Origin: Methanothrix thermoacetophila PT
GTDB taxonomy: Archaea; Halobacteriota; Methanosarcinia; Methanotrichales; Methanotrichaceae
Reading direction: 5' to 3'
Length of the DNA: 64,000 bases
Assembly: GCF_000014945.1 (NCBI RefSeq)
Contig: NC_008553.1
Location: forward strand, 1,426,001-1,490,000
Below, in pieces: positions 27,348 to 31,017 of this stretch (position 1 is its first letter; each line of letters begins with the position of its first letter). Position numbers and translations under genes: made by a program. The notes below the pieces were generated by a model, which made no database searches, was not told where the DNA came from, and was given only the letters and a program-made list of their open reading frames with translations.

Positions 27348-27890
27348 TCACAGGTGACACTTCACAAACCTCTCGAGGATCCAGCAGTTTCTGACCTCTG
27401 GGCTGAATAAAATACCGTAGACAGGGCGATCGCGTCCCACAAAAGCCTCACAGTTCTCCTCTATGGCTCTCAATTCGGATGGAAGCACCAGACGAAAGGC
27501 GTGGAGGTGGAACACAGGTATCGTCCGCGGCTCTCCGAGCAGCGGCGTCTCAGCGATGATCTTCACGTCTCCCATGCCGATGTGGATATACGGCAGCACG
27601 CTTCCACCCAAAATGGAGCATATGAGAGCTGCTCCAGTCGATATTCCCAGCATCGGGAGTTTGCATTCCCGTATCCAGGAGAGCTGATCTGCATCATCAA
27701 AACAGCGCCTGTCTTTGAGAGCTGTGCCGCAGAGTACGATCTTATCGTAACCATGCGGGTCATCGAGCTCACTGTAATGCAGAACATCGATCTCTGCGCC
27801 AGCTCTGCGAAGCGCTGCTGCAACAGGGTCGACGAACTCGTATCTTGAGAGCGAGCCCGCGCGATAGCACATGTCAAGGACAAGAATCAC
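27348..27890 (-). CDS. Degenerate class I glutamine-amidotransferase-like protein
   Basis: This 180-residue protein has the flavodoxin-like GATase1 fold, seen in YDKIVLCGTALKDRRCF, then PMLGISTGAAL and ILFSPEVRN. In active enzymes the elbow reads GxCxGHQ and the end HPE. Here the nucleophile cysteine is serine and the histidine is serine, so glutaminase activity should be absent. The start lies 11 bases after the Dph6 stop, in the same operon. The pairing of an ATP-pyrophosphatase with a GATase-like partner recalls two-subunit GMP synthase. A binding or regulatory role is inferred. Confidence 0.78.
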   Translation of the reverse strand: MILVLDMCYRAGSLSRYEFVDPVAAALRRAGAEIDVLHYSELDDPHGYDKIVLCGTALKDRRCFDDADQLSWIRECKLPMLGISTGAALICSILGGSVLPYIHIGMGDVKIIAETPLLGEPRTIPVFHLHAFRLVLPSELRAIEENCEAFVGRDRPVYGILFSPEVRNCWILERFVKCHL

Positions 27891-27901
27891 CGTATCACCA
27901 T

Positions 27902-28618
27902 CTACGCATTGCCATTGTTCAGATGCCCCGGCTTCTCCACGAGCCTCGCTGACTCGATCACGTATCTACCCCGATTCCCGCTGAAGTGGCTTGCAGCGCG
28001 GAGAATCTCAAGACGCCTCCTGAAGATAGGCCCGTCCAGCACCAGCGTCTCTAGCTCGCCACCCTCCCCAGAGGGACTTATTCCATACCTTTTTTGAAGA
28101 CCCTGAAGCTTTGCTATCATCCCATCATCAATCTCCGCTCCCAGAAAGCTCTCATCAAGGGGGTACGCGAAGACACCTGTCACAATGACCCTGAAGCCGT
28201 ACGCTCTCAGCATCCTCAGATACTCGATTTGATCTAGCTGCCAGAGGGGGTTGAAGCACCAGAGATCAAGGCTGCTGCAGATCCTCTGGATTCTTGATGA
28301 CTGGTAGACGGACTCGATCGCGCCTGTCACTATCCCCTCGATGCCATAAAGCCTGCGCGCCTCGATGATCGCATCTCTCAAATCCTCCAGCTCCATCTCC
28401 TCCACGCCCGGTGTTCGCCACTTGAGGATATCAACGCCAATGGCGGATGCCACAAGATCCGCGAGCCCTATGTTCGGGGTGTGGAACATGTAGCTCTCTT
28501 CATTCTCAGATATCAGGGTGATCAGACACCGTACGTCCTCATGTTCCATGGCCCTGTAGCAGGCGAAAACAGAATCCTTGCCGCCGCTGAATAGAACTCC
28601 GAGTTTCATATCAGACAT
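27902..28618 (-). CDS. dph6: Diphthine-ammonia ligase
   Basis: This catalyses the last step of diphthamide synthesis on elongation factor 2, amidating diphthine with ammonia and ATP. The 238 residues match the archaeal Dph6 (MJ0570-related) N-type ATP-pyrophosphatase family: the PP-loop FSGGKDSVFA at residues 10-19, IVTGAIESVYQSSRI in the middle and the conserved SGEGGELETLVLDGP near the end. It is followed at 11 bases by the degenerate amidotransferase-like gene. Confidence 0.93.
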   Translation of the reverse strand: MSDMKLGVLFSGGKDSVFACYRAMEHEDVRCLITLISENEESYMFHTPNIGLADLVASAIGVDILKWRTPGVEEMELEDLRDAIIEARRLYGIEGIVTGAIESVYQSSRIQRICSSLDLWCFNPLWQLDQIEYLRMLRAYGFRVIVTGVFAYPLDESFLGAEIDDGMIAKLQGLQKRYGISPSGEGGELETLVLDGPIFRRRLEILRAASHFSGNRGRYVIESARLVEKPGHLNNGNA

Positions 28619-28730
28619 ATCTCATCCGTGCTGCATCTTCGGTACAGACCACCGCATCCAGTATGATATCTGGCATGGAACTTGTCTCACAAATCTCTTA
28701 CTGACGATGAGCGGGACCTTTCCAGATAAG

Positions 28731-28806
28731 AGCTGTGGCCAAAAATCTGGATCTTCCCTCTTCTGCACATCATAAACACCTAATCCTTATTCGAACACAT
28801 CCGATG
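28731..28806 (-). repeat. Dispersed diverged repeat, copy C2
   Basis: Similar to copy C1 at 26605-26673. It includes the minus-strand motif TGT-TCG-AAT-AAG-GAT (28786-28797). It lies in the gap 28619-28885 between dph6 and the chorismate mutase gene; no gene was seen there. Confidence 0.6.
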
Positions 28807-30610: not shown

Positions 30611-30740
30611 GAACGAATGTCTGAAACAAGCTTTTATAAAAAAATTCCCATCAGGATGCGGAACTCAAGAAACCATCAAATGGGATCATAACAGAGCTGG
30701 CACATGGAGTATGCTGTGAGCTGGTCCCAAGATAGCTAGC

Positions 30741-30862
30741 GTAACATGCTCAATACGTTGATATGAACTGCCCTCTTGGCAGATTTCTGGGATGAACAAT
30801 CCCCAATGATGGCGACTTCAGTCGACCGCAACTCAAATACGCTCACGATATCGAGCAAATGC
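30741..30862 (-). repeat. Dispersed diverged repeat, copy B1 (decayed coding sequence)
   Basis: Aligns with 54873-54992 in inverted orientation over about 120 bases. Both copies translate in one frame to similar peptides: LLDIVSVFEL and KSAKRAVHINVLSMLR here, LLNIVSVLEL and KSAKRTIYLNLLSMFL there. The gap 30611-31017 holds this copy and a short tandem TTTGAGATTGCCC duplication near 30939-30965, but no convincing gene. Confidence 0.75.
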
Positions 30863-31017
30863 AGCCAGCGCCACCGGCAGGTCGCATGGGATGATGGTAT
30901 AGGCACAACGGGATTGCCCCATCTATTGCCATGCAGTTTGAGATTGCCCGTTTGAGATTGCCCCAGAGAGAACGAAGAACAGCAACAGCACAATTCAGGT
31001 GTGCTGCATATCCGCTC

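Follow-up and report, generated by a model that had tools for sequence, protein, structure and literature searches.

Background

Two lines bear on the nitrogen source of the last step of diphthamide synthesis: yeast Dph6 uses ammonium (PMC5354562), which it takes in vitro (an in vitro assay is mentioned in PMC3585130), yet several lineages have Dph6 joined to modules that are proposed ammonia sources. In Methanohalophilus and Methanosalsum, Dph6 is fused behind a class-II glutaminase of the AsnB type and an Asn-synthase module, and ammonia supply is the role that de Crecy-Lagard and colleagues propose for the class-II module (2012; PMC3541065). Yeast Dph6 carries RidA/YjgF domains, which are described as accessory and as a proposed ammonia source (PMC3541065, PMC3585130). 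Loss of glutamine use has been described for CPSI, which derives from CPSIII, the active-site Cys being changed in Xenopus (PMC2566978). In the portions of the open-licence Dph6 and diphthamide literature that were available, we found no description of a class-I GATase as a partner of Dph6. Here we describe such a partner from the archaeon Methanothrix thermoacetophila PT, in which the glutaminase residues have been replaced, and follow it across its relatives. The window refers throughout to the whole stretch of DNA analysed, which comprises 64,000 nucleotides (NC_008553.1, positions 1,426,001 to 1,490,000).

Results

The gene pair in the window genome

The window belongs to a genome of a single contig of 1,879,471 bases. 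On its minus strand we find, in this order, dph6, which encodes a diphthine--ammonia ligase of 238 aa (27902..28618; TIGR03679, 287.5 bits, cut-off 197.3), an 11-base spacer from the dph6 stop codon to the start of the partner (27891..27901), and the partner ORF, which has a GTG start and encodes a class-I GATase-like protein of 180 aa without the glutaminase residues (27348..27890; PF00117, 37.9 bits, cut-off 22.8). These scores confirm the Dph6 and amidotransferase-like identities that the original prediction had given to an ORF pair at this place and on this strand, and the two motifs that it had read in the partner, GISTGAAL and FSPEV, are both present in the protein, where they hold the nucleophile elbow (GISTG) and the His-Glu motif (FSPE). 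The PP-loop SGGKDS and GEGGELE motifs of Dph6 are intact, the signature of archaeal-type Dph6 being EGGExE and not ENGE(F/Y)H (PMC3585130). The EGGELE motif and the TIGR03679 score rule out a B12-salvage paralogue. The genome also encodes Dph2, Dph5 and an EF2 with the sequence LHEDAVHRG, in which we take the HRG context to mark the His that is modified.

Just upstream of dph6 lies a dispersed repeat, roughly 90 bases long (28713-28806), with at least 41 matches in its own genome including itself (40 of the 88 first-look candidates were scored) and six further places in the sister genome G044. A second short stretch (30738-30864) matches 11 places in G044 and is probably another dispersed repeat. 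Between 26500 and 31500, Rfam at the gathering threshold returned no family except one tRNA.

Identity and fold of the partner

The best NCBIfam match of the partner is GMP synthase subunit A (NF001975), where it scores 36.6 bits and the cut-off is 198, and the protein lies far below the cut-off of every NCBIfam model that it matched; in the five members tested, the GATase part likewise scored below the cut-off of every NCBIfam GATase model. A separate true GuaAA is found elsewhere in the genome (257.5 bits, motifs intact), and on these two grounds we rejected GMP synthase subunit A as the identity of the partner, although archaeal GuaAA is the nearest fold and sequence family to it. We conclude that the Dph6-linked GATase is a distinct archaeal protein and not a GMP synthase. 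The AF2 model of the window partner (pLDDT 94.0) has structural matches in GMPS subunit A (2a9v_B; Z 24.5, rmsd 1.6, 172 aligned) and human CPS1 (6uel_A; Z 19.2, rmsd 2.0, 161 aligned). The protein has the fold, the PF00117 match and the triad Glu165 of a class-I GATase and lacks the Cys, the His and the Gln, and it shares with the Dph6-linked group both the adjacency to dph6 and the EFVxP, GTxLxD and FxPEVxN scaffold. A contig scan for relatives that used the window partner protein alone confirmed none.

Linkage of the partner to Dph6

Across a sample of 50 genomes of the order, the partner was present in 43, at 44 places (matches at E 1.6e-28 or better), the seven genomes without it being G004, G027, G030, G032, G044, G048 and G049. 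At 43 of these 44 places it adjoins or is fused to Dph6. At the exception, in G014 (L074, L075), the first 26 residues of the partner lie beside Dph6 and the remainder about 73 kb away, reflecting either a rearrangement or a misassembly. A scan for GATase motifs that was not seeded by Dph6, with one genome per species, yielded 79 loci from the best 80 of 109 relatives, in 77 of which a same-strand Dph6 gene precedes the partner. The other two are L145, on the rearranged contig of G014, and L164, where the contig ends inside the gene. Occurrence of the partner without Dph6, which the original prediction had named as evidence against a joint role, was not found, the two unlinked loci being the one on the rearranged contig and the one cut off by its contig end. 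Judged by their titles, the loci come from groups such as Methanomicrobiales, Methanofastidiosia, Theionarchaea, Bathyarchaeota, Altiarchaeales, Woesearchaeota, Nanoarchaeota and Aenigmatarchaeota. One further Dph6-GATase pair (L161) sits on a contig labelled Desulfobacterales; to our knowledge, bacteria would not be expected to carry diphthamide genes, and this may be a case of misbinning or of transfer.

When separating the 77 linked loci by their arrangement, we count 13 open fusions and 64 separate pairs. Overlaps are found in 53 of the separate pairs, 48 of them by exactly 4 bases; six pairs are 0-30 bases apart, one is 116 bases apart and four lie beyond 200 bases. Of these four, L132 is a fusion with a frameshift; the distance in L170, L171 and L175 is 0.8-3.4 kb. 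In four sister species of the window genus, hereafter g1, the search-hit ends of dph6 and the partner are 28-30 bases apart, and 23 bases separate the two genes in G047, a member of the sister genus with an intact partner.

A profile search of 196 genomes of the phylum, each at least 90% complete, gave strong partner matches in 44 (at least 134 bits; next best 86) and Dph6 in 195. Seven of the 44 belong to the family of the window species. The loci of the other 37 were read, and every one has Dph6 upstream; the distance is at most 160 bases for 36 and 1,390 bases for G053. Within the window's family, G027 has Dph6 without the partner, flanked by one ORF that looks like a cobyric acid synthase and another that looks like a homocitrate synthase. 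The frequent presence of Dph6 without the partner, as in G027 and in the phylum sample (195 genomes vs 44), indicates that the partner is dispensable in evolution. In G044, a member of g1, both dph6 and the partner are absent and Dph2 and Dph5 are present. Both flanks of the pair were found there well inside contigs, with other genes next to them, indicating joint loss or joint relocation of the two genes, a missing contig being possible.

Fusion with Dph6

Dph6 and the GATase form a single frame at 14 places in 13 of the 50 order genomes, in ORFs of 404-493 codons, the shortest of which (G021) is frameshifted inside Dph6. Originally 15 ORFs had been flagged as fused, and G002 was left out, its Dph6 being in another frame. 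The order fusions form one clade (support 0.905); the 13 open fusions mentioned above come from the 79 named loci among the best 80 of 109 relatives. The AF2 model of a natural fusion, L105 (438 aa, 126-row alignment), reached a pLDDT of 94.3 and a pTM of 0.91, the latter not being an interface score. Its Dph6 part matches the Pyrococcus structure 3rk1_A (Z 33.3, rmsd 1.3, 218 aligned) and its GATase part 2a9v_B (Z 25.0, rmsd 1.9, 176 aligned). The high pTM suggests that in the fusion the two domains would hold a defined mutual arrangement. Foldseek and VIA matched the domains of the fused model singly, with no chain spanning both among the matches listed, which does not count as evidence against the arrangement.

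Loss of the active site in the window genus

The alignment places Ser84 of the window partner (codon 27639..27641) at the catalytic Cys, Ser163 (27402..27404) at the catalytic His and Ala88 (27627..27629) at a conserved Gln, while the triad Glu165 (27396..27398) is kept, all four codons being on the minus strand. We take Gln88, the last residue of GxCxGxQ, to be the glutamine-pocket residue of class-I GATases. All 62 aligned homologues have C84, Q88, H130, H163 and E165, a conservation that is partly built in, since this set was found through motifs that include the Cys or the His (GICAGMQ, HPEVR). The alignment holds 62 of the 66 unfused GATase references (L120, L132, L145 and L164 were omitted) and shows the Cys in all 62, including where the motif search of the named loci misread or missed the site (L134, L153, L155, L182). 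Comparisons free of this motif bias are provided by the family places in the order sample and by the 37 phylum loci.

The original prediction had the catalytic Cys and His both replaced by Ser. This holds for the window species, whereas across the genus both residues are lost and their replacements vary. In the five readable g1 species the Cys column reads S,S,S,S,A (S,S,S,A in the four sisters) and the His column S,N,D,N,N (N,D,N,N in the four sisters), and the Gln88 column is A in 5 of 5. A loss common to five species led us to reject a sequencing error or a single-strain oddity. Of the family's gene places in the order sample, the 39 that lie outside g1 all retain the Cys and the His. A loss typical of the order was accordingly rejected. 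Intact triads in close homologues, which the original prediction had named as evidence against its reading, are what these 39 places contain, so inactivity is no general trait of the pair in Methanotrichales. We read the inactive state as a derived loss in the window genus and, independently, in another genus.

We then examined the five g1 proteins at the 32 positions where at least 90% of the 60 intact sequences agree. All five differ at 84, 85, 88 and 163, which belong to the active site, and at 127; some differ at 70 and 144, and the remaining 25 positions are unchanged in all five, including those of EFVxP, GTxLxD and FxPEVxN except the His itself. The damage in g1 is concentrated at the glutaminase site. 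The 78 sequences used for the tree and for this comparison consist of 35 of the 37 phylum loci read, the five g1 proteins and 38 sequences from among the 79 named loci; G227 and G123, which have long insertions, were omitted, and both read GICAGMQ and FHPEV. The 60 intact sequences include some duplicates, a few named loci being the same genes as phylum rows.

A second loss and other lesions

Upon examining the 37 phylum loci, we observe that nine, all from a genus of another family (g22), read GISSGM(R/L), with Ser in place of the Cys and Arg or Leu in place of the Gln. In the tree, g22 and g1 form two separate clades among intact sequences. A search of g22 found the partner gene in 32 of 35 genomes, and across the 30 loci read the nucleophile position is Ser in 30, the Gln is lost in 30 and the His is kept in 29. 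The nucleophile was therefore lost, with the protein retained, at least twice, and g22 looks like an earlier stage of loss because most of its members keep the His. The EFVxP stretch is unchanged in all five g1 and nine g22 sequences aligned. Changes of other kinds also occur: the Dph6-linked GATase of G095 (L220) keeps the Cys and has Tyr for the His and His for Gln88, possibly a third independent lesion, in a single genome, and Gln88 is replaced by Glu in the partners of G103, G145 and G216.

Selection on the partner

For the dead g1 partner we obtain a dN/dS of 0.243 (bootstrap 0.172-0.324), with 0.092 for g1 Dph6. The corresponding values are 0.226 (0.172-0.279) for the intact partner of genus g8, with 0.177 for g8 Dph6, and 0.281 (0.210-0.358) for the g22 partner, with 0.159 for g22 Dph6. 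With a value similar to that of intact g8, the dead partner evolves under purifying selection, and its conservation across five species at this dN/dS exceeds what chance would give. A pseudogene was rejected on the open frames and the dN/dS of 0.24; no stop or frameshift is present in the five g1 species, at pairwise dS of 0.26-0.59. Relative to its own Dph6, the g1 partner evolves faster than that of g8 or g22, which is possibly a sign of partial relaxation.

Discussion

Because the Cys and the His are intact in all 39 family places outside g1, the ancestral partner probably supplied glutamine-derived ammonia for diphthamide synthesis. In the intact relatives, the partner would hydrolyse glutamine at Cys-His-Glu, the ammonia would pass to the ATP site of Dph6 and diphthine would be amidated there, with Dph6 and the partner presumably forming a physical complex in the unfused species. 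In g1, where the glutaminase site is gone, Dph6 would draw on free ammonium and the dead partner would stay as a scaffold. We consider it probable that, with the site lost in g1, Dph6 there uses free ammonium and the partner is kept as a non-catalytic subunit which stabilises or shapes Dph6. The intact Dph6 motifs and the presence of Dph2, Dph5 and EF2 suggest that diphthamide is presumably still made in the window species, with free ammonium. The earlier interpretation is supported in part. Of the roles it suggested, a structural relic of a subunit that once delivered ammonia has the best support, given relatives with intact Cys, His and Glu, some of them fused to Dph6.

A partner without any function in g1, which persists merely for lack of time, would agree with the lost active site, the raised dN/dS of the partner relative to its own Dph6 and the absence of both genes from G044. 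The overlap with dph6 is also gone (11 bases in the window, 28-30 in the sisters), but intact G047 likewise has 23 bases. Such a gene on its way out is unlikely: the reading frames have stayed open across five species whose pairwise dS is 0.26-0.59, the dN/dS of 0.243, with an upper bound of 0.324, is close to that of the intact relatives, and none of the five g1 proteins departs from the intact ones at 25 of the 32 conserved positions. The retention of the scaffold in two genera after independent loss of the Cys, with EFVxP unchanged in the 5 g1 and 9 g22 sequences aligned, would suit a new function instead, in which the dead GATase, as a subunit, serves regulation or EF2 docking and acts as a licensing factor like yeast Dph7; a plain structural subunit predicts the same conservation, and we hold this reading to be quite unlikely. 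A broader scheme has a small chance of being correct: a dedicated archaeal class-I glutaminase subunit made EF2 maturation glutamine-dependent, at least two genera independently turned it into an obligate non-catalytic regulator or EF2-licensing subunit, and g22 perhaps has a remodelled Ser-His-Glu site.

Catalysis with Ser in place of the Cys could be invoked for g22, where the Ser is invariant in 30 of 30 loci and the His kept in 29. It applies to g22 only, since the His column of g1 holds N, D or S and one g1 species has Ala at the nucleophile, and with Gln88 lost in both genera it is barely credible. That two functionally unrelated genes are simply co-transcribed is very improbable; Dph6 is indeed widespread without the partner, but one-frame fusions join the two, the pair is conserved from Methanotrichales to Methanomicrobiales, Bathyarchaeota, Woesearchaeota, Altiarchaeales and others, and Dph6 is fused in parallel to an unrelated GAT-II module in other lineages, as described in PMC3541065. 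The catalytically dead forms found in two genera amount to natural experiments in which ammonia delivery can be told apart from a structural role, and the presence of the class-I module in many archaeal groups, in some of them fused, puts glutamine-dependent diphthamide synthesis within reach of a direct test.

Comparison with known systems

As in the AsnB-type fusion, a glutaminase module is joined to Dph6 here, but in the class-II system the GAT-II and Asn-synthase modules, of unrelated fold, are N-terminal, whereas the class-I GATase lies downstream or C-terminal. The joining of two unrelated glutaminase types to Dph6 in different lineages supports a role in ammonia supply. In at least 26 genomes of the phylum sample, Dph6 is part of a longer ORF, of 636-776 codons; 21 of the 26 were read, and the one scanned with Pfam contains Asn_synthase, GATase_7 and Dph6. 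None of the 44 genomes with the class-I partner is shared with these 26 among the matches listed; the genomes share ancestry and are not independent counts. Class-II glutaminases need a Met-Cys start, which is found in 15 of the 21 long ORFs. Those of G120, G072 and G207 (L228, L246, L239) have Ser or Thr after the Met and not Cys, and those of G112, G060 and G115 have no clear Met-Cys start. Inactivation of Dph6-linked glutaminases may have recurred among class-II forms as well.

The RidA/YjgF domains of yeast Dph6 resemble the partner in the accessory ammonia-giving role proposed for them, and differ from a class-I GATase in fold and chemistry. CPSI offers a precedent for the inactive state: a class-I GATase domain is retained, glutamine use is lost and the synthetase takes ammonia, so that by analogy the dead partner would parallel the passage from CPSIII to CPSI. 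The synthetase is a different one, and the window partner lacks the Cys, the His and Gln88. The GATase domain of CPSI is fused, and the CPS chains matched by the window model each exceed 1,300 residues. Relative to the literature covered, the novelty lies in a Dph6-linked glutaminase of class I, where a class-II module was known, and in its derived inactive state, which resembles the one in CPSI.
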